From the IMG/VR virus record IMGVR_UViG_3300009094_000026, positions 1 through 48,302 of that record: a stretch of DNA of 48,302 nt; one strand, written 5' to 3'. Each line of letters begins with the position of its first letter. Within the stretch, counting starts at the first letter, position 1. Made by a program: the position numbers and the translations under genes. Below the pieces are notes generated by a model. That model did not search any database. It was not told the DNA's origin and saw nothing but the letters and a program-made list of their open reading frames with translations. This document shows positions 9,890 through 45,102 of the stretch, one piece after another. This stretch comes from a virus.

Positions 9890-9890
9890 T

Positions 9891-10322: not shown

Positions 10323-10334
10323 GGAGAAACGCAG

Positions 10335-10763: not shown

Positions 10764-10780
10764 TCGGTAGTCGACAGCGG

Positions 10781-10802
10781 GTTCGTTAACCACCAAACGA
10801 AC
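10781..10802 (+). terminator. Hairpin between tail tube and tail chaperone genes
   Basis: GTTCGTT (10781-10787) pairs with AACGAAC (10796-10802), seven base pairs with an eight-base loop. It ends directly before the CGGAG ribosome site of the chaperone gene, so it could attenuate transcription or limit ribosome access. No T-run follows. Confidence 0.4.
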
Positions 10803-10813
10803 GGAGCAGAGTA

Positions 10814-22435: not shown

Positions 22436-23716
22436 ATGAAGATCCACGCTCATCCGCAGAAGACCGACTACGCCAGTCCAGCCGAGTGGCCAACGCGTTC
22501 CTTTCAACATCATTGGAAAGCGTCTGATGCGATCCTTGTACCGCCGCCAGCGAATCCGCAAACAGGTCACCTCCACATCGACATGACCTATCCCGAAGAT
22601 GCCGAGTGGGCCACCGGGACGTTGACGATTCCGTTCAAACTCAAGCTGTTCCACGTGGCTGGACGTATCACTCAGGTATTCGCGGCTGTCCTCCAAAGCC
22701 ACAATGCGCGAGAGATCATCTGGGATGCAACCGGAACCACGACTCCACCATCGATGATTGGCGACATCAACAGCCTGAAGGAGTGGTCTGGGCATTTCGT
22801 GATCGACCCGCCGTCGAATCCCAGGATGCCGGAATTCCTGCACGGCTGGATCTTCCTGTCAGTCAGTGCGGCGATGCAGTTCGACAACGGCGTGGCGGTC
22901 ACTGGCAATTCTCTTGGGGCGGTGTGGTCGATGGTTGATCCGTCACTTCCGCCGGTTGGTGGTTTCCATCTCCCAACGGTTGGCAGCCGAACGATGTCAA
23001 AAGATCCGAGTCTGCCGAACGTATTCACTGGCGCGAATCAGATGGACGCGATGTCGTTCTTGCCGTTGGCCCCGATCAGTACACCGTGGGAGATTTCCAC
23101 GTCCGCGATTCAATACGCGGCACAATCGCCGCTACCGATTGCGACGTTCGAACTTCGTGCGGATTTGGACTTGCATGCCGGGATCCCTGGGCGCGTACTC
23201 CAACGCGTGGTCAAACCACCAGACGGCGGATTCGTTTCTGTACTCGATCCGAAGGTGATCGGACCTGGGGTGCATCGAATCGCGATGATGCTGATCCAAC
23301 CCCTGGCGGAGATTCAAGAGGTAACCACCCTGTTGGTGTTCGATGTGACCATCGGCGATGTGCCGCCTGCGGAACTCGTGGTGGTGCCGAACGTCGTTGG
23401 AGAAGATCAATCGGCGGCTGCCGCAATCCTTGAAGCGGCGGGCCTCCACAGCTCACCGATGCTGCACGAGAACGAAGCTCCCAAAGGTCAAGTCTTCATG
23501 CAGGATCCATCTGCGGGATCGTCGGTCCAAAAAGGATGGGTGGTTTCGTTGATGGTGTCTGAAGGACCGATCGCTCCACCCCACCAGGATATGCGTCCGG
23601 TGGAAGTGTTCCAGTTGTTGGAGAACGGGAAACCGGTCAATCGATTCTTCGCATGCTTCGACAGTCCTGACGGGACCCACGAGGTGTGCGCGGAGCTGAT
23701 GGTGAAACCGAGCTAA
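22436..23716 (+). CDS. PASTA-domain protein (putative structural or cell-surface-binding)
   Basis: A 426-residue protein with a clear PASTA domain at about residues 314-380: it begins with VVVPNVVGEDQSAAAAILEAAGL and ends with VVSLMVSEGP. PASTA domains bind peptidoglycan or beta-lactam-like stems. The first 300 residues are beta-rich, with aromatic/proline patterns (PSNPRMPEFLHGWIFLSVSAAMQ). No signal peptide, no transmembrane segment, so a virion fibre or surface decoration role is most likely. The gene is bracketed by two hairpins sharing one stem, which makes it a separate transcriptional unit. Start ATG 22436 after ACGGAG. It is the last + strand gene. Confidence 0.65.
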   Translation: MKIHAHPQKTDYASPAEWPTRSFQHHWKASDAILVPPPANPQTGHLHIDMTYPEDAEWATGTLTIPFKLKLFHVAGRITQVFAAVLQSHNAREIIWDATGTTTPPSMIGDINSLKEWSGHFVIDPPSNPRMPEFLHGWIFLSVSAAMQFDNGVAVTGNSLGAVWSMVDPSLPPVGGFHLPTVGSRTMSKDPSLPNVFTGANQMDAMSFLPLAPISTPWEISTSAIQYAAQSPLPIATFELRADLDLHAGIPGRVLQRVVKPPDGGFVSVLDPKVIGPGVHRIAMMLIQPLAEIQEVTTLLVFDVTIGDVPPAELVVVPNVVGEDQSAAAAILEAAGLHSSPMLHENEAPKGQVFMQDPSAGSSVQKGWVVSLMVSEGPIAPPHQDMRPVEVFQLLENGKPVNRFFACFDSPDGTHEVCAELMVKPS

Positions 23717-26701: not shown

Positions 26702-28839
26702 GCCGCCATCTTCTTAGGAGCACCACCAACGATCTCTGGTGGGAGAACAATCTTCGTTGGCCGTGACCAACGAGTCTTGGCGATTTTCATTTCAACCGGC
26801 AGTCGGACCGGCAACCCGAGACGCTTACTATCCTTCTGCATAGCTCGGATGATATCCTTCATCAGCTCGATACTATGCAACTTCTTTGGCAACTCGATAA
26901 TGACTTCGTCGTGTACAGTCAGGAGCAGTCTCACTCCCAACCGATACCAATCCGTCTCCTTCAACATCTCGTGAATGTTGATGAGACCGTTCTTCATCAC
27001 ATCCGCCGCGGTGCCTTGAATCAAGTAGTTAACTGCACGATACGCGTAGTCTGGTTCGAACGTATAGCGACGACCAAATGGACTGTAGATCTCTCCAACC
27101 TGTGTCGCCTCAGCAATGAGGGCAGACATAAACCGTTTGACACCGGGGAGCTTGGCTTCGTAGCCGGCCACGAACTCCTGTGCAGTATCGAGGTCGGATT
27201 TGAGAAGCTTCGCCACCTTGGGAACACCGCCCCCATACAACTTACAGAACATGATCAGCTTAGCGCACTTGCGGTAATAATCTTTGTGTTCGTCGAAGTC
27301 GTCGCGACTACTGAAGACTTGTTTGGCGATGCCTCCGTGATAGTCCTGTCCAGACATGAGGGCCGCTTGCATGGCCTTCTCGCCGGACAGATAGGCGAAC
27401 AACCAAACTTCAATCTGCGAATAGTCGGGTAGATACCAAATGCAACCAGGACGTGGACCAAAAGCTTCACGCGGTCTCGATTGAATATCCGCCTTGCGTC
27501 GGCCGGTGGTCTCCGACGCTACTTGTTGAAGGTTCGGATCAGAACACGACAGTCGGCCGGTAATCGCTCCTGTCTGTTTGAAGTTGGGATGAAGCGTCCA
27601 TACTCCTGGCGACTCCTTCAACCAGTAGCGACGGTACACATGGAGAAATGAATTGTTTGTCTGCTGTGCCGCATTGTGTTCTAATACGGCTTTGGCCAAC
27701 GGGTCTGGTGGAACCTTAATATACCGCGCACCGGTCTTCCGATTACGAAGCCACTTGCCACCAATCGGCAGGTGCTCGGTCTTCCGGTCCATATTGAACC
27801 ACTCGGCGCTCTGGATCACATACCCGGTTCCCATCTTTAGGAGATGTTCTCCGGTGAGCGAGTAGTTGAATGTCCCGGTCTTCTTGTTGAGTGTGCCAGT
27901 GAAGTTTGGTGGATGATGACGGGTCTCATAGAACACCTTCGACATCTCTGGGGTGCTCTTGTAGTTCAGACCTTCGCCACCATTCGCCGAAGCGATCTTG
28001 CGTTGCTCCGCTCGATAGTTATTGTAGAACTTAATCAAGGAACGTACACGCGGTCGGTGGATACGTGTGCCCGTGTCCTCCATATCTTTCAACACCCAGA
28101 ACAACTTGTGCTCTCGATCGCAAACCTCCTTGGTCCGTGCGTCGGCTTGGATCTGGTCCCACCACGCTTTGTAAATGAGCATGGAACGAACCGCGTCGCC
28201 AACAGCATATGGAGCGATGAAACTATCCGGACACAACCACATGTCCGACTTGGCGGGTTTCTTGCCACCGATGATCTTGTCGGCGATGGACCAACGTGTC
28301 TTCTTGGCCTGTTGCCGTCGCCGGTTGACTTCTTGGAGGAGCGTCTTCTCGTCGTCATCGGGATACTTGAAACGACGTTTGCAGAACTGCTTCAACGCGT
28401 AGGTGAGTTCTTGTCCACTCGTAGCGATATGGGCAATGATCTGCGTATCGAGGCAACGACCTCGCACTCGCATCCCGCCGTGTTCGGCCATCAAGATGTC
28501 GAATCGAAGGTTATGGCCGATCTTCGTAATGTCTTTGTCGTCCCAGAGTTCGGCAATCGCGGCGAGCTTTGACTTGTCGTGAAAGGAAACTTCTCTGGTG
28601 ATCGGATCAACGTGACCACGAAGATAGTCGGTGTTTCCGTCTTGGTCGCACATCGACCACACGAATGCGCGAGCAGGAACTACCGACCGTACTTCAATGT
28701 CAGGCTTCTTCTTCGTTCCGAAGTTCAGGATTAGCCGACGCCAATCACCGTATGGCATCATGCCGGTCGTCTCGGAGTCGATGGCGATTGCTTTGCCGCG
28801 AACCTTGAGACCCGAACGCGAACCCAGTCTAACTAACAC
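26698..28839 (-). CDS. Family A DNA polymerase with 3'-5' exonuclease
   Basis: About 713 residues. Residues 20-220 form a DnaQ-type proofreading exonuclease: IDSETTG, GHNLRFD near 108-114, and YAVGD near 211-215. The polymerase domain has the A family motifs: RLSCSDPNLQ near 429, motif A DYSQIE near 472-477, motif B R-x3-K-x3-F-x3-YG near 523-536, motif C HDE near 643-645. It should be the replicative polymerase. No 5' nuclease domain. The start is unclear: GTG 28839 gives an 11-base overlap with the upstream gene; in-frame ATGs at 28935 and 28983 would overlap it by more than 100 bases. Confidence 0.9.
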   Translation of the reverse strand: MLVRLGSRSGLKVRGKAIAIDSETTGMMPYGDWRRLILNFGTKKKPDIEVRSVVPARAFVWSMCDQDGNTDYLRGHVDPITREVSFHDKSKLAAIAELWDDKDITKIGHNLRFDILMAEHGGMRVRGRCLDTQIIAHIATSGQELTYALKQFCKRRFKYPDDDEKTLLQEVNRRRQQAKKTRWSIADKIIGGKKPAKSDMWLCPDSFIAPYAVGDAVRSMLIYKAWWDQIQADARTKEVCDREHKLFWVLKDMEDTGTRIHRPRVRSLIKFYNNYRAEQRKIASANGGEGLNYKSTPEMSKVFYETRHHPPNFTGTLNKKTGTFNYSLTGEHLLKMGTGYVIQSAEWFNMDRKTEHLPIGGKWLRNRKTGARYIKVPPDPLAKAVLEHNAAQQTNNSFLHVYRRYWLKESPGVWTLHPNFKQTGAITGRLSCSDPNLQQVASETTGRRKADIQSRPREAFGPRPGCIWYLPDYSQIEVWLFAYLSGEKAMQAALMSGQDYHGGIAKQVFSSRDDFDEHKDYYRKCAKLIMFCKLYGGGVPKVAKLLKSDLDTAQEFVAGYEAKLPGVKRFMSALIAEATQVGEIYSPFGRRYTFEPDYAYRAVNYLIQGTAADVMKNGLINIHEMLKETDWYRLGVRLLLTVHDEVIIELPKKLHSIELMKDIIRAMQKDSKRLGLPVRLPVEMKIAKTRWSRPTKIVLPPEIVGGAPKKMAA

Positions 28840-29290
28840 GGATGCTACGGGAGTAGCGTTGCAACCAGAACAAGAACGAACAACGATCGCAAATCTTCGG
28901 CGTCGTCTGCAACATATTACAACGCGTCGGTTCATCGCTCTCGCAGCGACGGTGTGACTCGACGAACAAGGCCGCATCTTCAATGATACGAACCTTGTAT
29001 TTCAACCAGAAATGAAACATCCCCATGTACACCGCGATGTCGATCATTCGCGATTCGGGCGACTCGCTTTCAACCTGACCTTCGATTACGAAACTTCGAA
29101 GGGCGATGTACTGCTTCCGAATCTTCGCCCAGAGATCTTGCTCGACTGTCATCTGACATTCCCACGCCGTCTGCAGTATCTCCAGGAAGGCGACTTTATC
29201 TGGATGGTAGTCGGCATTCTTCCGCCATTGGAGCTTGTTGGCGTCTTCGAAGAATGCCGCGACCTCTTCACTCATTTGCGTTGCATGCAT
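28829..29290 (-). CDS. DUF1599-like (Nmad1-type) helical protein
   Basis: About 153 residues from ATG 29290, which has GGAG six bases upstream; an ATG at 29302 is possible. The segment RKNADYHPDKVAFLEIL then QDLWAKIRKQYIALRSF and RMIDIAVYMGMFHFW resembles DUF1599, a family linked by others to nucleotide modification. The final 40 residues are Cys-rich and less conserved-looking, and they overlap the polymerase reading frame, so the true C-terminus may be shorter. The gene precedes the DNA polymerase in the operon. Confidence 0.55.
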   Translation of the reverse strand: MHATQMSEEVAAFFEDANKLQWRKNADYHPDKVAFLEILQTAWECQMTVEQDLWAKIRKQYIALRSFVIEGQVESESPESRMIDIAVYMGMFHFWLKYKVRIIEDAALFVESHRRCESDEPTRCNMLQTTPKICDRCSFLFWLQRYSRSIRVS

Positions 29291-29313
29291 CGTCGTCTCC
29301 ATCCACGAAAGAA

Positions 29314-29400: not shown

Positions 29401-30444
29401 CTATTTCTTGCTCTTCTTCTTGCCCTTCTTCGGAACGGACTTCGCGGGTGATTCCTCAACGGACGTAATGGCGTCGGCCTTGATCTTGACCGTCTTGCCC
29501 TTGTCGGTCTTGATCAGGACCTTACCTTCCTGCTCGAAGAGTTCGACGACCTCGCCCTTGATCTTGCCGGACTTCTTCGTCTCGGCCTTGACCACGGACC
29601 CGACGACGACGTCGACTTCATCTTCGACCTCTTCTTCTTCGTCGTCTTCTTCGTCTTCGTCCTCTTCGTCTTCCTCTTCGTCGTCCTCGTCTTTGGACTT
29701 GGATTTCTTGCCCTTCTTTTTCTTGCTGGGCTTCTCCTCCTCGTCCTCGTCGTCTTCCTCCTCGTCTTCTTCCTCTTCCTCCTCGTCGTCGTCAGACTCC
29801 TCGTCGTCATCGGACTCTTCTTCTTCCTCGTCGTCCGATTCCTCCTCGTCGTCCTCTTCTTCTTCGTCTTCGTCGTCCTCTTCGTCGTCCTCGTCGTCGT
29901 CCTTCTTCTTGGACTTCTTCTTGGACTTCTTCGGTTCGTCGTCGTCCTCGTCCTCGTCCTCTTCTTCCTCCTCGTCGTCATCTCCAACGAGGCCGTCGAC
30001 GTAGACGTTCTGGAACTCGCCCTTGGTCTTCAAGCGGACGCGGCACTTCGGCTTCGTCTTCTTGATGTCATCGAGGATGTCCTTGAGTTCCTTCTCCATG
30101 TCCTCGAGCTCGGACACATCGTAGCCCATCGCGTCGAGTTTGCGAAGCAAGTACTCCAGATGGTCCTCGGTCAGACCTTCGAAGTCGAGCTTCTCCTTGC
30201 CCTTGTATTCGCCATCCATGAACTTCCACGTGATGACGACCTGGACCCGCTTGTTCTTCGAGACACCGATCTTCGCATCGGTCGCCCGCATCCGATAGCG
30301 ACCGTCGTCGTATTCAGCGAACCCGCCGGTTGCCGCCTTCTCCTTCGCTTCGTCGAGATTCTTGTTGAGCCGGCGAAGGTACTTGCCGAAATCAACCCCA
30401 GATGACGACGACTTGCCTTTCGATTTCTTTTCCTTCTTCTTCAT
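29401..30444 (-). CDS. DUF669-like ssDNA-binding protein with long acidic region
   Basis: About 347 residues. Start chosen at 30444 because AGGAG lies six bases upstream. Residues 20-150 resemble DUF669: YDDGRYRMRATDAKIG, then EYKGKEKLDFEGL, ending in KGEFQNVYVDGLVG. DUF669 proteins bind single-stranded DNA beside Sak4 recombinases, which is the arrangement here. Residues about 155-285 are almost entirely Asp, Glu and short Lys/Ser runs, far beyond the acidic tail of typical SSBs. The last 60 residues contain an SH3/KOW-like strand set (VVGSVVKAETKKSGKIKG). The acidic part likely recruits partners or mimics DNA. Confidence 0.7.
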   Translation of the reverse strand: MKKKEKKSKGKSSSSGVDFGKYLRRLNKNLDEAKEKAATGGFAEYDDGRYRMRATDAKIGVSKNKRVQVVITWKFMDGEYKGKEKLDFEGLTEDHLEYLLRKLDAMGYDVSELEDMEKELKDILDDIKKTKPKCRVRLKTKGEFQNVYVDGLVGDDDEEEEEDEDEDDDEPKKSKKKSKKKDDDEDDEEDDEDEEEEDDEEESDDEEEEESDDDEESDDDEEEEEEDEEEDDEDEEEKPSKKKKGKKSKSKDEDDEEEDEEDEDEEDDEEEEVEDEVDVVVGSVVKAETKKSGKIKGEVVELFEQEGKVLIKTDKGKTVKIKADAITSVEESPAKSVPKKGKKKSKK

Positions 30445-30455
30445 GTGATCTCCTG

Positions 30456-31340
30456 TCAATGTTTACCGATCCGGAACTTCTTCTTCTTGACTGTGGTGGC
30501 AGCCTCCTCTTCGTCGATGTCCGACGACCGCGTCGGGACGTACTCGTTGTTGAACGCCGCGGTGACGTTCTTGTACGCTTCCTTGGCCGAGGTTCCCATA
30601 TCGATTCGACGAATCGGTTTCCCGTCTGGTGTGAGAAACCGTCCTTCGAGTCGATGTCCTGCCGAGACGTGGTCGTCGCCAAGGATCTGTAGAACCCGTC
30701 GTCGCTTGTCGTATGAATAGTACGCCCAGATGTCGACCGATCCTTCGACGAGGTCGCGCATCTTCTTGTGCATGGTCGGCATCATGCGGTCGTACGTTGC
30801 GCCGTCCCGTGTCTCCACTTCCACTTCTTGGGCATGTGAAAGGAAGATCACTCCCTTGCCGGAGTTGAGCAATTCACCAAACGTTCGTTCGAACTCCCTA
30901 CGATTCTCTCGCCACCCCTTGCCCCACTCCTCGTCGGCCAAGTCGTCGATGACCAACTTCTCGCAAGTGTAGTCTTCGACCATTGGGTACAACGGATCGA
31001 CAATGTCAACGACCACGGTGTCGAAGGTCTTGTCTTTTCTCAACGCCTTGATCGCCTTCTTGAACTTCCGCCAGCTGTTGATCACCACTGGGTAGAGACG
31101 TAGTGCCTTGCCACCCGGCTCCGTGAATAGGTGAATCGCTTTGCCGAACAACGCGGTCAACGACGTCTTGCCGATTTTCTTCTCGCCGAAGATCAGCCAC
31201 GTGTAGGCTCCCAAGGAATCTTCCGGTTCGGACCGCTCAGTAGGGAGTACGAACTTCTCCTCCCCAGTCTCCTCGCGCTCGCGAACCTTCTTTTTCTTGT
31301 CGGCCTTTTTGTGGCCCTTCAACTTCTTCAGGACGGCCAC
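30456..31340 (-). CDS. Sak4-like RecA-fold ATPase (AAA_24 type)
   Basis: About 294 residues from GTG 31340, directly after the upstream stop; the longer in-frame reading overlaps the upstream gene and looks non-coding. Walker A is GEKKIGKTS near residue 53, preceded by TWLIF. Walker B is DTVVVDIVDPLY near 110. VIFLSHAQEVEVETRDG near 168 fits the next strand, then a C-terminal LEGRFLTPDGKP. Such proteins act as single-strand annealing recombinases with DUF669 SSBs. The adjacent gene is exactly that. Confidence 0.75.
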   Translation of the reverse strand: MAVLKKLKGHKKADKKKKVREREETGEEKFVLPTERSEPEDSLGAYTWLIFGEKKIGKTSLTALFGKAIHLFTEPGGKALRLYPVVINSWRKFKKAIKALRKDKTFDTVVVDIVDPLYPMVEDYTCEKLVIDDLADEEWGKGWRENRREFERTFGELLNSGKGVIFLSHAQEVEVETRDGATYDRMMPTMHKKMRDLVEGSVDIWAYYSYDKRRRVLQILGDDHVSAGHRLEGRFLTPDGKPIRRIDMGTSAKEAYKNVTAAFNNEYVPTRSSDIDEEEAATTVKKKKFRIGKH

Positions 31341-31341
31341 G

Positions 31342-31554
31342 TTACTCGTCGTCCTCGGTCTTGACGTGGCGGATCTCCACGTTGTTCGCGCCACCGTTCG
31401 TCTCAAGCACGATGGTGCGACCACCCGTCGGCTTGTACGTCGCTTTGTTACCGTCGTCCGTGTCGTTGGTTTGTTTCATCCCACTGAAGAGTTGAATCTT
31501 GCACGTGGGATCGTCCACCATCTTTCGGACGATGTCTTTCAGTGCCTCATCCAT
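31342..31554 (-). CDS. 70-residue hypothetical protein
   Basis: ATG 31554 overlaps the radical SAM stop by eight bases. A short N-terminal helix (MDEALKDIVRKMVDD) leads to a small beta-rich region (TYKPTGGRTIVLETNGGANNVEIRHV). It resembles nothing I can name. Coupled to the Sak4-like gene one base downstream. Confidence 0.6.
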   Translation of the reverse strand: MDEALKDIVRKMVDDPTCKIQLFSGMKQTNDTDDGNKATYKPTGGRTIVLETNGGANNVEIRHVKTEDDE

Positions 31555-32713
31555 GACGAGCCTTCACTTTCAACGAGGCGAGTGGAATCACCTGACCGGC
31601 CACCTCTACCGGTGCAGGCTTAAGGGAATTACCATTCCCTGCGAAGACGTATTGACGCATCGTCTTCAGATGCTCTGCAACCATTAGCTGCAGCTTCTCG
31701 TCGGAATCCTTCGCGTATTCGGCTCCCGGCGGTTTGATGAGACCCTGACGCCATCCACCGTTGTAGCTGCACACAGAACAGGGTGTCATGTTACGGTTCT
31801 TCCGGAACAGCAATTCCCGAATCGCGTTCATCTGCACAGACTCCCAGATCTGCTGCAGCGATTGATTGGGAAACTTACCAACCGGTAACTGCGTCGACCA
31901 GTCGTAGCAGCACACAGGCACTACACCATTGTAGCCCATATTGAGTTCTCGGAACGGCCGTGTGCATTTCTTCTTAAGCGGCTCGGTGATTGGCTCCTGT
32001 CCCAAGAGATTCTGCAACGGCTTCTCCGGCGAGTTGCCAGCTTCGTTGTTGATATCCTTTGAGACCGGACGTCCGGTCTCCGCCCGCTTCTTCGTGTTCA
32101 CCTCTCCCAGATCGTCGAGCACAAAGATCTGTTGTCGGTTGGTCGGATACCGTCGATAGATCGAGAGATGATCTGGGTTGTCGTAGTAGTGATCCGTGAC
32201 CCGGATGTCTTTGTCCTTGGCGTATTGCTTAGCGTAGGCCATGAACATTTCATACCGAGTCTTATGTCGTTCATGCGGTTTGCCCCACCACCGCTTGTAG
32301 GCGTTGATAGCCAACAAGTTCAGACCCTTGGCAAACCATTCGTCAGCCGACGATCTGAACGTCTTCCAGTCCTCGATCTGGGAGCCGTTGGTCTGCAGTT
32401 GGATATGGGCGTTGGGATCCAACCGAATCGCTGCAATGATTCCTGCGAAGTTCTTGTGCAACGTCGGCTCACCATGGTTGTCGAGTTCGACACGCACCCC
32501 ACCAGGGAGCCATCGCTGAGTCTCCTTGAACATCGCGCGAACGAGTTCGACTGGCATCTCTCGATAGTCCGCCCACCCGGTGCCTGGGGTGTCTTTGGAA
32601 CGAACGCTATGGATGCCGCAGAACCAACAACTATAATTACAACCTTCCACAACCTCCAATTGTATGGACCACGGCAAGGCGACGAACGGTTTCTTTGGCA
32701 ACGAGATCTTCAT
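31547..32713 (-). CDS. Radical SAM enzyme with SPASM-like C-terminus
   Basis: About 388 residues from ATG 32713, coupled by ATGA to the small membrane gene before it; a longer reading frame upstream lacks support. The radical SAM motif CNYSCWFC (C-x3-C-x2-C, Cys25, 29 and 32) follows an initial strand. DNHGEPTLHKNF is the GxxE-like SAM-binding segment. Further cysteines (KKCTRPFRELN, VPVCCYDW, PCSVCSYNGG) resemble a SPASM or twitch domain for extra iron-sulfur clusters. The reaction is unknown. Enzymes of this type modify peptides, and others appear in DNA-hypermodification loci. Confidence 0.8.
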   Translation of the reverse strand: MKISLPKKPFVALPWSIQLEVVEGCNYSCWFCGIHSVRSKDTPGTGWADYREMPVELVRAMFKETQRWLPGGVRVELDNHGEPTLHKNFAGIIAAIRLDPNAHIQLQTNGSQIEDWKTFRSSADEWFAKGLNLLAINAYKRWWGKPHERHKTRYEMFMAYAKQYAKDKDIRVTDHYYDNPDHLSIYRRYPTNRQQIFVLDDLGEVNTKKRAETGRPVSKDINNEAGNSPEKPLQNLLGQEPITEPLKKKCTRPFRELNMGYNGVVPVCCYDWSTQLPVGKFPNQSLQQIWESVQMNAIRELLFRKNRNMTPCSVCSYNGGWRQGLIKPPGAEYAKDSDEKLQLMVAEHLKTMRQYVFAGNGNSLKPAPVEVAGQVIPLASLKVKARHG

Positions 32714-32844
32714 TTCTTCAACTCCGCCGCCAACGCCAACACGTTGGGCAGGCATAGCAGTACAACAATGAATAGGACAAAGACACCAATCGCGATCATT
32801 GACAGAGCGCCCCACGCAAAGAGTATAATCTCCAACCAAGTCAT
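32710..32844 (-). CDS. 44-residue membrane peptide
   Basis: ATG 32844 has AGGAG nine bases upstream. The sequence is one long hydrophobic segment (LEIILFAWGALSMIAIGVFVLFIVVLLCLP), possibly two short spans, then LALAAELKK. Its stop overlaps the start of the radical SAM gene (ATGA), so the two are probably made together. Function unknown. It is one of several tiny membrane genes on this strand. Confidence 0.6.
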   Translation of the reverse strand: MTWLEIILFAWGALSMIAIGVFVLFIVVLLCLPNVLALAAELKK

Positions 32845-33023
32845 TTCATCATCTCCTTCTTCTTCTGCTTGTCCATGTATTGGATATAACGCCACGCCGC
32901 ATACAGCACACGGTGAGCAATCGGATTCGAAATCGGCGCGTTGGCTGGAGCACCGGCATAGTTCGCTTCAGCGACCGCATCTCGTAGACGCTTGTACAAC
33001 GACTCCTCTTTCGTCAGACTCAC
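32841..33023 (-). CDS. 60-residue hypothetical protein
   Basis: ATG 33023 overlaps the glycosyltransferase stop (ATGA). A helical N-terminus (MSLTKEESLYKRLRDAVAEA) is followed by an Ala/Pro-rich stretch and a C-terminal aromatic helix (RVLYAAWRYIQYMDKQKKK). No family is recognised; four-base overlap couples it to the next membrane peptide. Confidence 0.6.
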   Translation of the reverse strand: MSLTKEESLYKRLRDAVAEANYAGAPANAPISNPIAHRVLYAAWRYIQYMDKQKKKEMMK

Positions 33024-33796
33024 GGTTCAACCTCCAACGACTTTTCGATTTGCGTCCACGGAAAAGTCACCCGGACCTTCTCCATGTATTGCGGATGCGT
33101 CTGCGAGAATCTCTGGATAGCGATTCCGACTTTCCGAACCCGTTCGCCGATACCGCCGTAGCCTCCCGGCATGTAACGTTTCTTCTGAAATGGCGCGTCC
33201 ATACAGACCATCTGCGCAGTGAGGTTCATATCGAACGCGGCAAAGGTGACCTGCACATCGTCCATACAACCTTCGTCAACGACGTAGCGCATCTTGTTGT
33301 ACAGAGTATGTGGGATCGCCCAGAACATCGCCGACCTCTTCTTGTAGAAGCGTAACCCGTCGTGGGTCTCGACTCCCTTCTTGATACGCCCAGAATCGAA
33401 ATGTTCGGCTGTCCCATGCATCCCTGCGATGAGGCAAGGTTGAATCGGATAGACGAACGACGCACGCACCAGGTTTTTCAAACTCTTTTCGGTGTAACGC
33501 GTATTGTCGTCGGTCACCACGTAGCGATCGAACTTCACTTCAGTGGCTTCCTGACGAAGCATCTCACGCGCGTAGGTCCCACTACCATAGGGATTCTCGT
33601 ACGTGATCCAAGTTACCCTATCGAACTCCCTTCGTACCGGGAGGTATTTCTTCCTTTCTTTTTCTTCCACACCAATGAATGTGCTGGGTCGGTTCAGGAA
33701 CGGCTGTGCGCGTAAGGTCTTCAACAAGACTTCTGGTCGTCCCTTCGATGGGATCAGTACTGCAAATGAACGTTGAAGTTTAACACGCACAGCCAT
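33020..33796 (-). CDS. GT-A glycosyltransferase-like protein
   Basis: A 258-residue protein. It begins with a beta strand and FAVLIPSKGRPEVLLKTL (about 10-28), a hallmark of GT2-type folds, and has YVVTDDNTRYTEKSLKNLV near 92-110, where DDN is the sugar-nucleotide/metal site. Later FWAIPHTLYNKMRYVVDEGCMDDVQV could hold the catalytic acid. Start ATG 33796; GTG 33790 has a better spaced AAGGAG. It lies in the - strand metabolism block, far from the structural glycosyltransferase island, so its acceptor may be DNA or a modified nucleotide rather than a virion protein. That is inference. Confidence 0.6.
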   Translation of the reverse strand: MAVRVKLQRSFAVLIPSKGRPEVLLKTLRAQPFLNRPSTFIGVEEKERKKYLPVRREFDRVTWITYENPYGSGTYAREMLRQEATEVKFDRYVVTDDNTRYTEKSLKNLVRASFVYPIQPCLIAGMHGTAEHFDSGRIKKGVETHDGLRFYKKRSAMFWAIPHTLYNKMRYVVDEGCMDDVQVTFAAFDMNLTAQMVCMDAPFQKKRYMPGGYGGIGERVRKVGIAIQRFSQTHPQYMEKVRVTFPWTQIEKSLEVEP

Positions 33797-33802
33797 CTCC
33801 TT

Positions 33803-34174
33803 CTACTTGACGGTGTCCCGCTTCTTCTCGAGCTTCGCTTTCTTGGCCGAGAGCTTGTTGATGCGACTGTCGATCTTGTCGATCCGCTTCTGGATTCGCG
33901 CGACCTTCTTATCGACCTTCTTCTTTGCTCGCGCGTCGGCCGGTGTCGACTTCTTCGGTGGTACTGCAACAGACTTCTTCGCCATGGTGGTTAGTTCCTG
34001 CGCCAAACGTTTTTTGAATTGTGGTCGTGCGCGGCGCAAAGCGTCCGCCACAAAGTGTGAGCCTTTTAAAAACAGCGTTGGGTCTTCCTGGATTGCACGG
34101 CCTGGTTCTCCTGCGAACGGATTCCCGTCTCGCTCGCCCAGATAGTCGATGTATCGGTCCTCATGATATCCCAT
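33803..34174 (-). CDS. Small protein with basic coiled-coil C-terminus
   Basis: A 123-residue protein. Residues 1-60 contain a possible small folded domain (DYLGERDGNPFAGEPGRAIQE). Residues 64-123 are Lys-rich and coiled-coil-like (KKVARIQKRIDKIDSRINKLSAKKAKLEKK). An in-frame ATG at 33985 (Met-Ala-Lys-Lys) with AGGA upstream could give a separate 60-residue product of the basic part. The basic half may bind nucleic acid. It lies between the glycosyltransferase and ThyX-like genes. Confidence 0.55.
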   Translation of the reverse strand: MGYHEDRYIDYLGERDGNPFAGEPGRAIQEDPTLFLKGSHFVADALRRARPQFKKRLAQELTTMAKKSVAVPPKKSTPADARAKKKVDKKVARIQKRIDKIDSRINKLSAKKAKLEKKRDTVK

Positions 34175-34186
34175 GCCCAGGTACCG

Positions 34187-35443
34187 CTACTTTATCTGGT
34201 CGTGTGGGTACTTTCCGTTGGTCGGGATCCAACGAATCTGTCCGCCCTCCATACTCTCAGGAGCGAGAACGAAGAACGGCATCTGCTCAGGCCGGTGTTG
34301 CCGAGTCAAACTGTCTTTCCCAACGTACTTGTGATACGGAGCATAACGATGTCCACCGGGTTCCGGATCTCTCTTGCAGACCTCGCAGTACTCCTGGGCT
34401 GGTCCTTCTTCTCGATCAATCAGATGATTGCCTTGCGCGTGTCCGCACTCCGCACATCGTTCGTACGGGTTCGGATACTTGCCGTCCGGTGGCCAGGACT
34501 CGAGACCTGCAAACCGTGCCGCCTTGGCCTTGTCGCTGTGACTGCCGAGATACTTCGAGATGATGGGTGGGCATTTCATCTTCACTTCGCGCAGCATCAA
34601 CTGAGCGACGCAATTGAATTCCCAGTCCATAATGTGCTCAAGACGGTTGGCCAACACACCGGACAGGGCAATCCAATTGTACTGGTCGTGGATATAGGTC
34701 TGCATTCCCATGAACAGTACGCGACGAGCGTCCTGCCAGGGAATGCCGGCATCGACCAGTGCCGAGTACAACCGACGACCGTTGTCGATGTGCTTCAGAA
34801 TCTGCGCATGGAGTGTCGGGTCACCGTCTTTCGATTCCATCCCATCGAACACCGGCTGATGTGACAGATACTCCTTGATGGGTTCCCAATTCGTAATGCA
34901 ATGCTCGAGACTCTCCGGCAAGAGGGCACCCTTGTCGTGCACTGCACACGCCCGACGTATCGTCTCCGGCATCGTCCACGCGCGATGACGCCAGTCGTTG
35001 TCGCGCCCGCCGTGCTGCATGAAACCGGCACCCAGACGCGTCCGAACGTTCTGGTGTGTAAATGCGCGTGAGACTCCGTCGATGCAGAAGTCGAACGTGA
35101 TTCCTTCGAGGACCTGCTGCAACGTCTTGCCCGCGAAGCAGGACTCGACATAGTCGCGTTCGTCTGGAAGCAACCGTGTCCATCCGGTGACGAAGGCAAC
35201 CTTCGGATCGTTCACACGCGTGTCGATCGTCAGATTGAGATTGGGTTCGCGGTTCACAGTCCGCGATGGCGACTCGCCCCAGTTCGCTTGGAGTGCGTCG
35301 TACATGGATGTGAACAAGTTCACTGTCGGACCCCATCGATCCAATGTGACCTTCAGACTGTCCGGCCCGTAGGTGATGGGATTCGTTGGCTCTTCGCCCG
35401 TATGAATGGCGTGAGGCCGGTGCTTCGCATCTTCGTAAGCCAT
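34187..35443 (-). CDS. Divergent ThyX-like flavin-dependent thymidylate synthase with zinc-ribbon tail
   Basis: A 418-residue protein of the ThyX superfamily. Matches: ITFDFCIDGVSRAFTHQNVRTR near 115-136 corresponds to the FAD/dUMP-binding strand-helix of ThyX; GIPWQDARRVLFMGMQTY near 233-250 and LEHIMDWEFNCVAQLMLREVKMKCP near 268-292 correspond to its C-terminal helices. The signature RHR-x7-S-x-R motif is altered: RTR at 134-136 then HGGRD. An extra 110 residues contain Cys330, 333, 353 and 356, a likely zinc ribbon. ThyX makes dTMP from dUMP; the changes suggest a modified nucleotide or other substrate. Ribosome site AAAAGGAG is present. Confidence 0.65.
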   Translation of the reverse strand: MAYEDAKHRPHAIHTGEEPTNPITYGPDSLKVTLDRWGPTVNLFTSMYDALQANWGESPSRTVNREPNLNLTIDTRVNDPKVAFVTGWTRLLPDERDYVESCFAGKTLQQVLEGITFDFCIDGVSRAFTHQNVRTRLGAGFMQHGGRDNDWRHRAWTMPETIRRACAVHDKGALLPESLEHCITNWEPIKEYLSHQPVFDGMESKDGDPTLHAQILKHIDNGRRLYSALVDAGIPWQDARRVLFMGMQTYIHDQYNWIALSGVLANRLEHIMDWEFNCVAQLMLREVKMKCPPIISKYLGSHSDKAKAARFAGLESWPPDGKYPNPYERCAECGHAQGNHLIDREEGPAQEYCEVCKRDPEPGGHRYAPYHKYVGKDSLTRQHRPEQMPFFVLAPESMEGGQIRWIPTNGKYPHDQIK

Positions 35444-35455
35444 CTTCGTCTCCTT

Positions 35456-36478
35456 TTATTCTGCGGTGATCTCGAACGGGATCTTCCCAGGCATCTTCTT
35501 CTCCCTCTCCATCAAATCGTGCAGGCTTCGTACGGTGAGCGGGTTGTGCGTCGGGTCGGATTCGTCGAACGGTAGTTTGCGATCGCGCTTGTAAGTCTTG
35601 ATCATTCGAGACCGCAACTGTTCGACGAACTTGTCGCTGTCGTCAACTGCGAACACGATTTGTCCGCGCATGGTTGCTGGTCCCTCTTCGATGCGCTCTC
35701 CTTTCTCGTTAGCCCACCACAGGAAATCGAATGGCAAATTGTTGTTGGTCAACCACGTGATCGTGTCGGTGAAGATGTTCGGATACAAATCGACCGGTCT
35801 GCTAGTGATGAGAATGATCGTCCAGCCTTGGGCTCGGCACCATTCGAGAAACGGCTTGGCGTCCGGGAACACCGGAAGGGTTTGCTTGCCGCCGCGTGTG
35901 CGGAAGTCGTGTTTAACTTTCTGCCACTCCAGATGGGGAAACCCAACGGATGACGACGAAATAAATGTCCCGGACTTCTCGATACGGTCCAGGTTTTCAA
36001 TCAGTCGCCGAGTATCGGAAGGAGAGAGCTTCATCAACTGCGCTCCCCATTCACGAGCCCACCGACACATCCCGGTCAGGTAGTCGGCTAACACCTGATC
36101 GATATCAACGATCACCGAGGGTCCATCGATCGTTGCTAACCACTCCTCCTGGTAGCGATAGCGGACCACTCGGCTCTTGGCGTAGTAGAGTTCTTCCAAT
36201 CGTTCCATCGGGAAGTCTGCGAGGTCGCAGAGCGAGAGCCAGTACTTGAACTGGTCAATCAACTCCTCGTGTGAATGAGCGACGTTCTGAAGACGAACCT
36301 TCGACCGACGATGCACCTTATAATCGAAGGTGCGGATGAACTCTAAGGACTCCTCAATCAACCCGAAGGTCAGATCGCGAAGTCGTGCGAGGAACGCCGG
36401 CTGATCGTCCTTGAATTTCTCGCGGTCCCAAATCAGTTTGTTGAACGCTCGCTGGTCTTTGTAGAGTTTTGTAATCAT
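35456..36478 (-). CDS. MazG-like NTP pyrophosphatase fused to HAD phosphatase
   Basis: About 340 residues from ATG 36478 (ATGA overlap with the oxidoreductase). Residues 10-110 are an all-alpha NTP-PPase (MazG/dUTPase superfamily) region: GLIEESLEF near 40-48 carries the ExxE pattern and EELIDQFKYWLSLCDLAD follows. Residues 120-320 are a HAD domain: VIVDIDQVLADY with Asp125 and Asp127 (DxDxV), LITSRP as motif II and VDDSDKF as motif IV. Such a fusion would convert a dNTP to dNMP and then strip the phosphate. It could purge canonical nucleotides or prepare a modified precursor. Confidence 0.65.
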   Translation of the reverse strand: MITKLYKDQRAFNKLIWDREKFKDDQPAFLARLRDLTFGLIEESLEFIRTFDYKVHRRSKVRLQNVAHSHEELIDQFKYWLSLCDLADFPMERLEELYYAKSRVVRYRYQEEWLATIDGPSVIVDIDQVLADYLTGMCRWAREWGAQLMKLSPSDTRRLIENLDRIEKSGTFISSSSVGFPHLEWQKVKHDFRTRGGKQTLPVFPDAKPFLEWCRAQGWTIILITSRPVDLYPNIFTDTITWLTNNNLPFDFLWWANEKGERIEEGPATMRGQIVFAVDDSDKFVEQLRSRMIKTYKRDRKLPFDESDPTHNPLTVRSLHDLMEREKKMPGKIPFEITAE

Positions 36479-37296
36479 CGCTTGTCGCCATTCTCCGAGA
36501 CCCAGGTCTCGATATGATGCCACGTCTCGTGGGCGAGTTCGTCTGGACGCCATGTGGCGAAGCGACCGAAACAGTGCACATCATGTAGACGCATCGTCGC
36601 TAGCATCAACTCGCTTTCCGGATGTGCATGAATCTTTCCAGGAAGAAGTTTCTTGGCTAGTGACGTCGGAGTGAGTTGTTCGTAGAAATCGTATCCCGGT
36701 GTGCGGGTCTCCCGATAGCAAGATACGGTGGGGTCGGAGAGATAGTTGAGCACCATCCCTTTCGGGTCGTTGAACTTCTTGGGAATGGTGGTCATGAAGA
36801 TGGCGTTGGACTTAAAGGGTTCCTTGAACTCCGGACCCACGATCATCAGATCAAGGAAGGCAGGAAGCGGGATCGTGTTGATCAGGATGTCATATTCAAT
36901 CGTTTTCCAGTCCGCCATCCCCAAGGTATGGCCGGGCAGGTCGACCATGCGAACCGTCTGACCGAATTCAATCGTGGGCACGGGAAGTTTGGATTCCCAC
37001 CCTACGCTCTCGTGTTGAAACTGAAGACCCCAGTTGCCACCATCGTCTTCTTTGCCGATCTTCTTCTTGTAAGCCAAGATGCTCTCTGGGGTAGGAGGTT
37101 GGCCGTCAACCAGCGTCGTCACCGGAAACGACTCCGACGGCACACCCGGGATTGGCTCCCAGAGATACTGCGGCCCCATCCGCGTCTCCATATGATTGAC
37201 TGGGGGCGTCTTCCGCCAATCCAACAACCGAGCTTCTGGAACAGCCAACTGGAACAGCTGCGCTGCAAACCCGCCACCTATCACGACTATCTTCAT
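36475..37296 (-). CDS. FAD/NAD(P)-dependent oxidoreductase
   Basis: About 273 residues from ATG 37296. It opens with KIVVIGGGFAAQLF, the GxGxxA dinucleotide-binding fingerprint of an FAD or NAD(P) Rossmann fold. Further sites are IEYDILINTIPLPAFLD near 130 and HCFGRFATWRPDEL near the end, a segment like the second FAD-binding motif of amine-oxidase or UDP-galactopyranose-mutase-type proteins. It is shorter than those, so the substrate domain is reduced. It lies next to the MazG-HAD and ThyX-like genes and may reduce flavin or oxidise a nucleotide side-chain; the reaction is unknown. Confidence 0.6.
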   Translation of the reverse strand: MKIVVIGGGFAAQLFQLAVPEARLLDWRKTPPVNHMETRMGPQYLWEPIPGVPSESFPVTTLVDGQPPTPESILAYKKKIGKEDDGGNWGLQFQHESVGWESKLPVPTIEFGQTVRMVDLPGHTLGMADWKTIEYDILINTIPLPAFLDLMIVGPEFKEPFKSNAIFMTTIPKKFNDPKGMVLNYLSDPTVSCYRETRTPGYDFYEQLTPTSLAKKLLPGKIHAHPESELMLATMRLHDVHCFGRFATWRPDELAHETWHHIETWVSENGDKR

Positions 37297-40857: not shown

Positions 40858-41319
40858 TCAGGAAATACTCTTGACGACGCCGAACCGGTGGTCGCGACCG
40901 TCGGACCAATAGGGTATCTTCTCGTAGGCGCGACGAACTCTCTGCTCTTCATCGCTTGGAGGACGGACGGATCGACTGTCGGTCCGTGGATCATATCGAT
41001 AGGCTTTCCGAGGTCCGCGTTCGTATAGACCTTTTGGCACAGGACCAACCTCGTCGAAAATGTAGATAGTACGAAGATCGTAATCAGGAACTCTTTCATG
41101 GCGGATCACCTTCAGACGGTAGACACCGTCCGCTCCTTTTTTCATATCGAAGGTTGACTCGTGATGATGGCCCAATCCCCATGTCGACTCGATATCGATA
41201 GAGGACGTTCCATCCTCGTGTTCGACGACGACGTACTGCGAGTCTCCAAGTCCGATCGATTCGTACATACGCCGTTCGATATCGGACCAGTCGAACTGGT
41301 AGTGGCGTCGTCGTTTCAT
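40858..41319 (-). CDS. 153-residue hypothetical protein
   Basis: ATG 41319 overlaps the MazG-like stop by four bases (ATGA). Sequence: an RRRHYQFDWSDIERRMYESI start, then beta-rich VVVEHEDGTSSIDIEST and a His-rich GLGHHHES, DLRTIYIFDEVGPVP in the middle and an Arg-rich end. No recognised domain. Another frame across it begins with a signal-peptide-like run but looks like a shadow. Confidence 0.6.
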   Translation of the reverse strand: MKRRRHYQFDWSDIERRMYESIGLGDSQYVVVEHEDGTSSIDIESTWGLGHHHESTFDMKKGADGVYRLKVIRHERVPDYDLRTIYIFDEVGPVPKGLYERGPRKAYRYDPRTDSRSVRPPSDEEQRVRRAYEKIPYWSDGRDHRFGVVKSIS

Positions 41320-41630
41320 CGGAGTGTTCCCAAGTCGTGAGCGATGAGAAGATACTTCTGGATCTTCTGCGTCTTCGCGAACTCGAACCGCCGCGCCCGA
41401 TCGGACATGTCCCAGGCATCGATCCCGATCATGCCCAACGACGCACGCAGGTCGTAGTATTCCCGAAGGATGCGTTCCCGATTCGTTAAGAGTCCGGGGT
41501 TGTCCTCCGGCTTATCGTCTGGAAGGTGTTGCACCTGTTCCATCCCGAACCGTTTCGCCTTGGCGATACGATGCGCGACTTCGCAACACTCTTCCATCGT
41601 GACAGTCATCAGGTGTTCCATCTCAGTCAC
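41316..41630 (-). CDS. MazG-like NTP pyrophosphohydrolase
   Basis: About 104 residues from GTG 41630, overlapping the upstream stop (GTGA). MEECCEVAHRIAKAKRFGMEQ near residues 12-32 gives the EExxE pattern, and RILREYYDLRASL near 60-72 gives the second metal-binding Glu/Asp set. Such proteins hydrolyse NTPs to NMPs and house-clean pools. A longer frame upstream exists but overlaps the previous gene and looks non-coding. It is one of three NTP-pyrophosphatase-type folds in this window. Confidence 0.7.
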   Translation of the reverse strand: MTEMEHLMTVTMEECCEVAHRIAKAKRFGMEQVQHLPDDKPEDNPGLLTNRERILREYYDLRASLGMIGIDAWDMSDRARRFEFAKTQKIQKYLLIAHDLGTLR

Positions 41631-42100
41631 GACACCACCGTCCCCTTCGCGATCCGGTCCTCGCTCAGACGTTGGAAGAACTGTGCCTGCGTCTCCACGT
41701 TCAGATGCATGTTGTGCACCATCGCGACGTAGAGTTCGTAGGCCGCCGCACGGACAGGAAGTTGCGCATGACGATAGGCGATCACCTCCAACGCATGCAT
41801 GATATGCGAATACCAATGCTGCGGCAGATGGCCGAACTCCGACGGTTTGAAATTCGTCGGCGGATGGCTTTGAAAGAACGCCCCTGGGACGTCGACCTCG
41901 CGCACATCTGCAGGGTTCATGAAACACCAACGGACAAACGCCGTGATCCGCCGACCAGGCGACTCCGCCACTCCTCGTGCGGTCCATTGCTTCGGTTCGT
42001 CGTCGCAGCCACGCACCGCGGTCAACAGTGTTCCCTGTTCGCGCAAAGGGAGTCGCATCACCCAATCTTGCAACACACTTGTCTCGGGATTCTCCAACAT
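41627..42100 (-). CDS. Conserved phage hypothetical protein
   Basis: A 157-residue protein that I recognise as a type found in many phages but without a known function. LQDWVMRLPLREQGTLLTAVRGCDDEPKQW and FVRWCFMNPADVREVDVPGAFF are typical, followed by HWYSHIMHALEVIAYRH and a C-terminal LSEDRIAKGTVV. Ribosome site AAAAGGAG six bases from ATG 42100. No enzymatic motif is obvious. Confidence 0.65.
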   Translation of the reverse strand: MLENPETSVLQDWVMRLPLREQGTLLTAVRGCDDEPKQWTARGVAESPGRRITAFVRWCFMNPADVREVDVPGAFFQSHPPTNFKPSEFGHLPQHWYSHIMHALEVIAYRHAQLPVRAAAYELYVAMVHNMHLNVETQAQFFQRLSEDRIAKGTVVS

Positions 42101-44304: not shown

Positions 44305-45102
44305 CTACTTCTTCGCTTTCTTCGCGGTGGTCTTCTTGATGACCTTCTTCTTCGGCTTCTCTTCTGCCGGTTCTTCTTCCTCGTCGTCGACCTCTTCGTC
44401 GTCGCCACCAGATTCTTCACCATCTTCGTCTTCCGACTCGTCGTCGGACTCGCTCTCCTCCTCCTCGTCGTCTTCCTCTTCTTCCTTCTCGCCGCCGGAG
44501 AAGCTCGCCATAAACGTTTTGAGCTCCTCGTTGTTCTTGATCTCACGTTGCTTGACCACGACACCGGCTCGCAGCATGTTGCGGAGGATCCCCTTGACGA
44601 GTTTCTTGACCGTCTTCTTGCCTTCGGCCTTGACACCCGCCTTTTCCATCGCGAGGACTAACTCGTTCTCACCCATCGTATGCTCGTCGGCGCCTTGCAT
44701 CGCCTTCAAGACCTTCGACAAGAGCGAACCCTTCGGCGCGAAGCACCGATTGGCCACCAGGACGAGTTTGCGCCCCACCTTGACACCCTTCGTCTTCTTC
44801 GTCTTCTTGAGATCCTTCTTCTTCGCCACCTTCTTGCTCGCCATCTTTTTCTTTGCCACGACTGCCTCCACCTGTTGTTGATACTTTCGTTGACGTTTCA
44901 CCCGTCTCGCTTTCTTTCGTTCGCGACGCTCCTGCTTGGTCTCACGCTCCTTCGTTAAAAACGTGCACATCGCGCAATGGACATTTGCCCACATCCGACC
45001 AGGACGGTGGTCCCGTCGTGTGATGTGCCCACACCTAAGAACTAACGTCACCCTCGCCGTCCCCGGCTTGGGTCCGTAGACTTTAGTTACCGGACGTAGC
45101 AT
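44305..45102 (-). CDS. Lys-rich protein with acidic tail (possibly two products)
   Basis: A 265-residue protein. Residues 1-60 form a Cys/His-rich piece (LRCGHITRRDH, HCAMCTF) that may bind zinc. Residues 60-110 are extremely basic. A compact helical region follows near 120-180 (LVLAMEKAGVKAEGKKTVKKLVKGILRNML), then a long Asp/Glu run and a basic end. An in-frame GTG at 44859, preceded by GGAGG, could start a separate 184-residue product from the second half. The composition fits a nucleoid-type or assembly protein. It resembles the acidic-tail proteins elsewhere in the window. Confidence 0.55.
   Translation of the reverse strand: MLRPVTKVYGPKPGTARVTLVLRCGHITRRDHRPGRMWANVHCAMCTFLTKERETKQERRERKKARRVKRQRKYQQQVEAVVAKKKMASKKVAKKKDLKKTKKTKGVKVGRKLVLVANRCFAPKGSLLSKVLKAMQGADEHTMGENELVLAMEKAGVKAEGKKTVKKLVKGILRNMLRAGVVVKQREIKNNEELKTFMASFSGGEKEEEEDDEEEESESDDESEDEDGEESGGDDEEVDDEEEEPAEEKPKKKVIKKTTAKKAKK

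Follow-up and report, generated by a model that had tools for sequence, protein, structure and literature searches.

A candidate pathway for phage DNA modification built around a divergent ThyX-like enzyme and a UDP-galactopyranose-mutase-like flavoprotein

Three of the five genes of a biosynthetic cluster in a soil phage, encoding a flavoprotein, a MazG-HAD fusion, and a divergent ThyX, constitute a conserved core, while the glycosyltransferase (GT) and the radical SAM enzyme encoded beside them are lineage accessories, absent from many relatives. The window analysed is the whole stretch of 48,302 nucleotides of IMG/VR record IMGVR_UViG_3300009094_000026. We lean, if only slightly, towards a reading in which phage DNA contains a modified pyrimidine that the cluster makes by a new route based on ThyX; in the lineage of the window this base would be capped with a sugar. 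The chemistry of the route is predicted. It is put forward tentatively that a base modification made by a repurposed ThyX and a UDP-galactopyranose mutase (UGM)-like flavoprotein has gone unrecognised in approximately 480 phages and explains their restriction resistance, with glycosylation and a radical SAM step added in the window lineage.

All five genes lie on the minus strand between 31547 and 37296, have open frames, and possess close homologues in independent contigs, in agreement with the first-pass annotation that had named them. The features of the locus are as follows:

36475..37296, minus strand: UGM-like flavoprotein, core gene 1 (273 aa)
35456..36478, minus strand: fusion of a MazG/dUTPase-type domain and a HAD phosphatase, core gene 2 (longer frame from 36553)
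34187..35443, minus strand: divergent ThyX-like enzyme, core gene 3 (418 aa; Pfam Thy1)
35003..35044, minus strand: altered ThyX motif RTRLGAGFMQHGGR (residues 134-147 of the ThyX-like enzyme)
34376..34456, minus strand: CxxC...CxxC in the C-terminal extension of the ThyX-like enzyme, possibly a zinc ribbon (residues 330-356)
33803..34174, minus strand: small coiled-coil protein, between ThyX and GT (homologues in GT-bearing contigs)
33020..33796, minus strand: GT-A glycosyltransferase related to TAGT/T4 alpha-glucosyltransferase, accessory (TAGT, PHROG 842)
32841..33023, minus strand: small ORF of 60 aa between the GT and radical SAM genes (ORF only)
31547..32713, minus strand: radical SAM/SPASM enzyme, accessory (388 aa from ATG; PF04055, PF13186)
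30456..31424, minus strand: Sak4-like ATPase at the cluster border (PHROG 124, E 2.7e-32; AAA_24, 117 bits)
28829..29302, minus strand: small gene earlier labelled DUF1599-like (PHROG 1485, function unknown, E 1e-4)

The flavoprotein, MazG-HAD, and ThyX genes are contiguous and occur in identical order in every related contig long enough to show the trio, and relatives with the trio only, devoid of both GT and radical SAM genes, exist. The radical SAM gene is a nested accessory, found solely in contigs with the GT, and homologues of the coiled-coil gene are likewise restricted to GT-bearing contigs (L008, L011, and L014). Because the GT and the radical SAM enzyme are missing in many relatives, the five genes are not one obligatory unit, and a single obligatory five-gene pathway was dropped in view of the trio-only relatives. 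The earlier proposal of a hypermodification cluster is thereby narrowed: the linked biosynthetic set, the altered ThyX with its nearly invariant active-site motif region, the co-occurrence of the flavoprotein in unrelated phages, and the restriction resistance of some cultured carriers, for which no cause is known, speak for it, but the core comprises just three of the five genes. The co-occurrence in other genomes that had been suggested as a check holds for the trio and not for the GT and radical SAM enzyme, and the refuting condition named with it, genes found independently of each other in relatives, applies to the five as one unit. The first-pass annotation had also pointed to a DUF1599-like gene nearby, an identity that is not supported: the gene at 28829-29302, conserved in contigs L011, L014, L066, L067, and L070, matches PHROG 1485 only, has no Pfam or NCBIfam match at E 0.1, and shows no significant similarity, profile against profile, to a domain of other cassettes that looks like DUF1599.

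The ThyX-like protein exceeds the cut-off of Pfam Thy1 (PF02511; 63.6 bits against 24.8) and falls under that of the NCBIfam equivalog thyX (TIGR02170; 50.3 bits against 87.9). The canonical signature RHRxxSx...SxRY is replaced in it by RTRLGAGFMQHGGRD, and the motif RTRLGAGFMQHGGR is essentially invariant in a ten-member alignment, with only L137 varying; its description as ThyX-like with an altered motif is thus borne out. All four cysteines of CxxC...CxxC are invariant in the same alignment; the ThyX of contig L020 has a shorter C-terminal extension in which they are absent. The AlphaFold model of the protein (pLDDT 43.7) was unusable, and no relative was found in GTDB genomes.

The core might instead serve ordinary nucleotide metabolism, with ThyX making dTMP, the flavoprotein acting as its reductase or as an unrelated redox partner, MazG-HAD balancing the pools, the DNA left unmodified, and the GT and radical SAM enzyme working elsewhere. 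Canonical ThyX is also present in phages just for dTMP production; ThyX, MazG, and HAD are common phage nucleotide-metabolism genes, the Thy1 fold is kept here, and domains of the HAD and dUTPase types are typical of pool enzymes. Among 17 phage genomes, however, the flavoprotein is present in 11 of the 11 with altered ThyX and in none of the six with canonical ThyX, from which it follows that an ordinary ThyX can do without this partner. The signature RHRxxS...SxRY is kept in all six canonical proteins, whereas the ThyX motif of flavoprotein carriers lacks either the RHR histidine or the serine and tyrosine of SxRY; the ThyX of an Aeromonas phage retains RHR...S despite the presence of the flavoprotein, a point against the ThyX-based route. 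Ordinary metabolism, which would also leave unexplained both a DNA-base-type GT in the set and the restriction resistance of carriers, is therefore regarded as rather unlikely.

The pairing of flavoprotein and altered ThyX was found, unexpectedly, in the unrelated cultured phages Pbunavirus, Wifcevirus, and Carpasinavirus, and also in Rhizobium, Microbacterium, Mycobacterium, and Gordonia phages; the ThyX proteins of the phage groups are homologous (E 4.3e-14). A HAD phosphatase and an SDR often accompany the pair. For instance, Carpasinavirus, Wifcevirus, Myosmarvirus, and one Aeromonas phage have flavoprotein, ThyX, and HAD together with SDR and glyoxalase-fold genes; Pbunavirus has the flavoprotein-ThyX-HAD set; Microbacterium phage TinyMiny has all components, dispersed. 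Counts of ThyX and flavoprotein are equal by genus: Pseudomonas 291/291, Escherichia 27/27, Mycobacterium 26/26, Serratia 9/9, and Xanthomonas 6/6. In the ThyX tree, the flavoprotein-associated proteins form one side (support 87/82), and the co-occurrence may reflect a single joint origin followed by vertical descent. The carriers comprise approximately 480 cultured phages with sequenced genomes, among them Pseudomonas phages used in therapy (Pbunaviruses).

The flavoprotein, for which the cut-off search gave no Pfam match, was matched by PDB profile to UDP-galactopyranose mutase 4dsg (E 2e-7), and Foldseek with its AlphaFold model (pLDDT 84.5) returned the same structure (E 1.3e-10, probability 1.00, TMq 0.64). 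The FAD-binding GGG motif is invariant in the family, and the conserved YR arginine of the substrate region and the GRF.WR motif are shared with UGM. The earlier call of a flavin/NAD oxidoreductase is accordingly kept as to the flavoprotein and revised as to the type, which is UGM-like and not a generic NAD oxidoreductase. Its homology with the Carpasina/Pbunavirus flavoproteins extends over 243 aligned columns (hhalign E 1.8e-12). The Pbunavirus-type proteins have no significant UGM match and only weak amine-oxidase matches at the N-terminus, so the term UGM-like rests on the window family and on homology between the families. The fold and motif match, together with the GT that follows in the window lineage, would suit a sugar pathway: UDP-galactofuranose, or a sugar nucleotide like it, would be produced by the flavoprotein and used to glycosylate DNA, the virion, or the surface of the host, ThyX being just a neighbour. 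This is considered very improbable, since many carriers have no homologue of the window GT, the flavoprotein has about 273 aa against 484-519 aa in the matched UGM chains, the Pbunavirus-type homologues lack the UGM match, and the constant partner of the flavoprotein is ThyX and not the GT.

For the MazG-HAD protein, no Pfam model scored above cut-off. Its N-terminal half weakly matches all-alpha dUTPase/dCTPase structures (E 0.01), and its C-terminal half carries the HAD motifs DIDQVLADY, TSRP, K, and VDDS, conserved in 11 homologues, which is consistent with the fusion first proposed; the protein also matches PHROG 415/420/173. It is related to the gp56 phosphatase of TinyMiny (blastp E 1e-8), and the HAD profiles of the two phage groups show a weak mutual match (27% probability). 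The window HAD has no match to PF06941, to which the TinyMiny homologue has a weak match below cut-off (E 0.002).

The two accessory enzymes also turned out as annotated. The GT-A glycosyltransferase matches PHROG 842 (beta-glucosyl-HMC alpha-glucosyltransferase; E 1.8e-6) and reaches 22.6 bits with Pfam TAGT, under the cut-off of 27.5; TAGT is matched at E<0.01 by five of eight GT homologues, and DDN is invariant. The radical SAM (PF04055, 41.5 bits, cut-off 29.5) and SPASM (PF13186, 38.7 bits, cut-off 21.5) domains both score above cut-off, the closest structure being BtrN (E 2e-4). A direct search of the phage collection with the window GT and radical SAM proteins gave no match.

Wifcevirus is insensitive to all tested RM systems except EcoP1_I, to which it is very sensitive, and the protection is described as having no known cause; it was also insensitive to the non-restriction defences tested (PMC11990801). 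DNA of PB1-like phages is digested incompletely by EcoRI and HindIII and is cut by Sau3A and AluI (PMC3634792). Since the latter enzymes cut and other work has mapped Pbunavirus DNA with HindIII/EcoRI/XbaI, any modification would be partial. The Pbunavirus JG024 built in yeast reboots only with host RM genes removed, while the native phage infects the wild type (PMC10913387); this is not strong evidence, because lost host methylation explains the result equally well. The literature searched contained no description of DNA modification in these phages. The product might alternatively be a modified nucleotide or small molecule acting outside DNA, for example by decoying or inhibiting host defences that sense nucleotides, as free nucleotides are possible substrates for all core enzymes and the insensitivity of Wifcevirus extends beyond restriction. 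It is judged quite improbable, since restriction resistance and the incomplete digestion of purified PB1-like DNA implicate DNA itself, TAGT kinship indicates glycosylation at the polymer level, and the cassette genes adjoin polymerase and recombination genes.

For the preferred ThyX-based route, we infer DNA as the target, protection from restriction as the purpose, and every chemical step. The MazG/dUTPase-type domain would convert canonical pyrimidine dNTPs to dNMPs, and canonical dTMP would lose its phosphate to the HAD domain, as it does to the PBS1 dTMP phosphatase, which would exclude ordinary T from the pool. The altered ThyX is predicted to attach a one-carbon unit at C5 of dUMP and to give a non-methyl product, most simply 5-hydroxymethyl-dUMP, which the UGM-like flavoprotein may tailor before the nucleotide is phosphorylated and incorporated by the phage polymerase. 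In the window lineage, the TAGT-related GT could then glycosylate the hydroxyl of the base in DNA, the radical SAM/SPASM enzyme might alter the attached sugar further, and the modified DNA would be protected against nucleases. ThyA (PF00303) and C5-methyltransferase (PF00145) were found in none of eight genomes with positive controls, the ThyA result being read with the possible incompleteness of the contigs; a 5mC-TET route was dropped for want of the C5-methyltransferase. The search for TET/JBP dioxygenase (0/8 genomes) was without a working control. Neither a 5-hmU DNA kinase nor an aGPT-pyrophosphorylase turned up among the scanned genes.

If the proposal is true, a modified base has been overlooked in several groups of model phages and in a common phage genus used for therapy, the pathway that makes it is of a new kind, ThyX gains a second chemistry, and the resistance of Wifcevirus to restriction, published without an explanation, is accounted for. 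It would further matter for engineering phages and for attempts to reboot Pbunavirus genomes made synthetically, and a pathway would take the place of the labels 'thymidylate synthase', 'oxidoreductase', and 'polynucleotide kinase' in hundreds of annotations. Carriers are already in culture, so the hypothesis is testable at once with existing phage stocks.

The cassette resembles several known systems in part. The phage ThyX-like protein shares the fold family of canonical ThyX, as its Thy1 score indicates, but misses the NCBIfam thyX cut-off and the signature motif, and differs in its 418 aa with the CxxC..CxxC extension and in its accompanying flavoprotein. The flavoprotein has the FAD-binding fold and substrate-region arginine of UDP-galactopyranose mutase, whereas it is little over half as long, has 10-13% identity, and has ThyX as its constant neighbour. 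The GT is nearest in Pfam to TAGT of TET/JBP-TAGT cytosine glycosylation, although its score is under the cut-off and the C5-methyltransferase was found in none of eight genomes. Thymidine hypermodification in phages M6, ViI, and SP10 starts from a ThyA-type dUMP hydroxymethylase, and radical SAM and flavin enzymes are also present in this pathway. A C5-modified deoxyuridine with further tailoring is predicted for the phage cassette as well, but with a ThyX relative in the place of ThyA and a UGM-like flavoprotein; the hypermodified thymidines of M6, ViI, and SP10 are derived from 5hmdU, according to Lee et al. as cited in PMC11955845. Enzymes of the dU-DNA phages PBS1, DSS3_VP1, and PhiR1-37 hydrolyse dTMP/dTTP and exclude canonical T, the PBS1 dTMP phosphatase Dtm belonging to PF06941 (PMC12697855), the family that the TinyMiny HAD weakly resembles. 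Unlike these phages, the cassette keeps a ThyX-like enzyme, so the expected base is a modified one rather than plain U.

The window, an IMG/VR virus record of 48,302 bases, has minus-strand replication genes in its right half (primase/helicase, PolA, Sak4, exonuclease, SNF2 helicase and ligase). A contig, G001 (L030), overlaps window positions 1-35,596 at 99.99% identity and runs 15.1 kb further left, which brings the known sequence of this phage to at least 63 kb. The genes proposed as a modification cluster are read as follows.

Genes in minus-strand reading order
36475-37296, minus: flavoprotein like UDP-galactopyranose mutase (UGM), first gene
35456-36478, minus: MazG-HAD, second gene
34187-35443, minus: ThyX-like protein, third gene
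minus: small coiled coil, between ThyX-like and glycosyltransferase (GT)
33020-33796, minus: GT, after the coiled coil
minus: 60-aa ORF, between GT and radical SAM/SPASM
31547-32713, minus: radical SAM/SPASM, after the 60-aa ORF and before Sak4
minus: Sak4, then probable SSB, past radical SAM/SPASM
28829-29302, minus: small gene called DUF1599-like, between probable SSB and PolA

The probable SSB adjoining Sak4 (29401-30459) has a long acidic Asp/Glu-rich tail, as does a second protein at 44305-45102. The genome's second MazG-like nucleotide pyrophosphohydrolase lies at 41316-42065 (PHROG 4856, E 1e-11) and is partially matched (residues 1-97) in the related locus L010. The plus-strand gene block ends in 22436-23716, which encodes a PASTA-domain protein (41 bits, cut-off 23.2). 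Left of window position 1, near the terminase gene, a 357-aa protein with a GT-A-like DADVMF motif (L030:16257-17330) has no match or homologue in Pfam, PHROG or the other loci examined.

Searches with the ThyX-like protein returned 14 and 17 viral loci in partly overlapping sets; on every sufficiently long contig among them, flavoprotein, MazG-HAD and ThyX are adjacent in that order. This extends to the distant loci L069 and L070, only ~30-50% identical to the window proteins. In L070, the PolA gene (8140-11160) is split: its two matching pieces overlap at their query ends and lie ~770 bases apart, which an intein, intron or other insertion may explain. The GT is missing from six of ten searched records, and in L069 and L070 it lies after Sak4. 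Two divergent copies stand in tandem in four related loci, L008 (1945-3553), L015 (854-3031), L066 and L067, which suggests that sugars are transferred twice in succession or that there are two types of acceptor. Outside the window, five loci have the radical SAM gene, and each of them also has the GT. Radical SAM is thus nested within GT and GT within the trio, which contradicts one obligatory five-gene unit and fits accessories tailoring the product of the core. The cluster noticed in the first-pass annotation is sound and larger than could then be seen, with three of its five genes forming the core and the GT and radical SAM only accessories.

The gene first labeled a flavin/NAD oxidoreductase does encode a flavin enzyme, here identified as UGM-like rather than generic. 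A profile of eleven homologues matches UGM 4dsg (E 2e-7), UGM structures are the top matches of the confidently predicted structure (pLDDT 84.5), and the conserved 'YR' and 'GRF.WR' segments align with UGM. The window protein is only slightly more than half as long as the UGMs it matches. Canonical ThyX carries the signature RHRxxS...SxRY, present in the six phage ThyX proteins compared, whereas in the window protein only the arginines remain and the histidine, the two serines and the tyrosine are gone. It scores over the Pfam Thy1 cut-off and under that of NCBIfam thyX. Since the altered motif is strongly conserved (RAFTHQNVRTRxGAGFMQHGGRDNDWRHR, essentially invariant among ten aligned homologues), the alignment points to a change of reaction or substrate, not to decay.

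The same partners recur in unrelated phages. In the phage collection, the window ThyX matched solely Xanthomonas phages, in which ThyX is flanked up- and downstream by a homologous flavoprotein and HAD fusion, both annotated hypothetical, followed by SDR and glyoxalase-fold genes. Wifcevirus, Myosmarvirus and an Aeromonas phage share this row, and Pbunavirus has it without the SDR and glyoxalase-fold genes. Microbacterium phages carry distant flavoprotein relatives, adjoining a 'ThyX-like thymidylate synthase' in Haunter and accompanied in TinyMiny by HAD phosphatase, SDR, glyoxalase-fold, GT and ThyX-like genes. Compared as profiles, the two flavoprotein families match over 243 columns (E 1.8e-12) and the ThyX families at E 4.3e-14; the HAD link is weak. 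The genes labeled 'polynucleotide kinase/phosphorylase' in phage record L054 (7114-8133), Pbunavirus and Wifcevirus encode a HAD phosphatase with a C-terminal DUF1599-looking domain, and the kinase label looks misleading.

Records with ThyX and flavoprotein matches, grouped by genus name, are equal in number for Pseudomonas (291/291), Escherichia (27/27), Mycobacterium (26/26), Serratia (9/9) and Xanthomonas (6/6), and nearly so for Rhizobium (10/8), Gordonia (55/46) and Streptomyces (11/9); for Halorubrum there are 13 ThyX records, and the listed flavoprotein genera do not include it. Two flavoprotein searches gave roughly 480 records (359 + 120), and the number of cultured phages with the core runs to several hundred. 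In 17 whole genomes, the flavoprotein, modeled with WaldoWhy and Sadboi left out, accompanies ThyX off the canonical motif in 11/11 and canonical ThyX in 0/6. The one-sided chance of this split is 8e-5, a value that overstates independence because the association may trace to one joint origin. One branch of the ThyX tree (support 87/82) divides the two motif classes, and the Aeromonas ThyX is intermediate, keeping RHR and the first serine and losing the SxRY part. That the pair has been kept over very long branches, with different polymerases and in different host phyla, is still hard to explain other than by shared function.

PB1-like phage DNA was incompletely digested by EcoRI and HindIII, with no such problem reported for other phages of the set (PMC3634792). 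Maps made with HindIII, EcoRI and XbaI were used in a second Pbunavirus study, which passes no remark on them, so any modification would be partial or variable. These papers do not tie their observations to the flavoprotein-ThyX gene set.

The best available reading of the gene set, though unproven, is still a modification pathway, of which we infer every chemical step. Searches of eight genomes for other routes to a C5-functionalised pyrimidine, run with working controls, turned up neither a C5-methyltransferase nor a ThyA homologue, which leaves the ThyX-like enzyme as the sole C5 candidate observed; a TET search, which lacked a working control, gave no match. By sequence family comparison, the GT is nearest to enzymes glycosylating hydroxymethyl bases in DNA. 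The radical SAM protein may act on the sugar, for which its nearest structure, BtrN, which oxidises an aminocyclitol alcohol, is a plausible precedent by analogy. The dUTPase-type domain and HAD phosphatase would remove canonical pyrimidine nucleotides, a role likened to that of the PF06941 dTMP phosphatase of PBS1, which removes a canonical pyrimidine nucleotide (PMC12697855).
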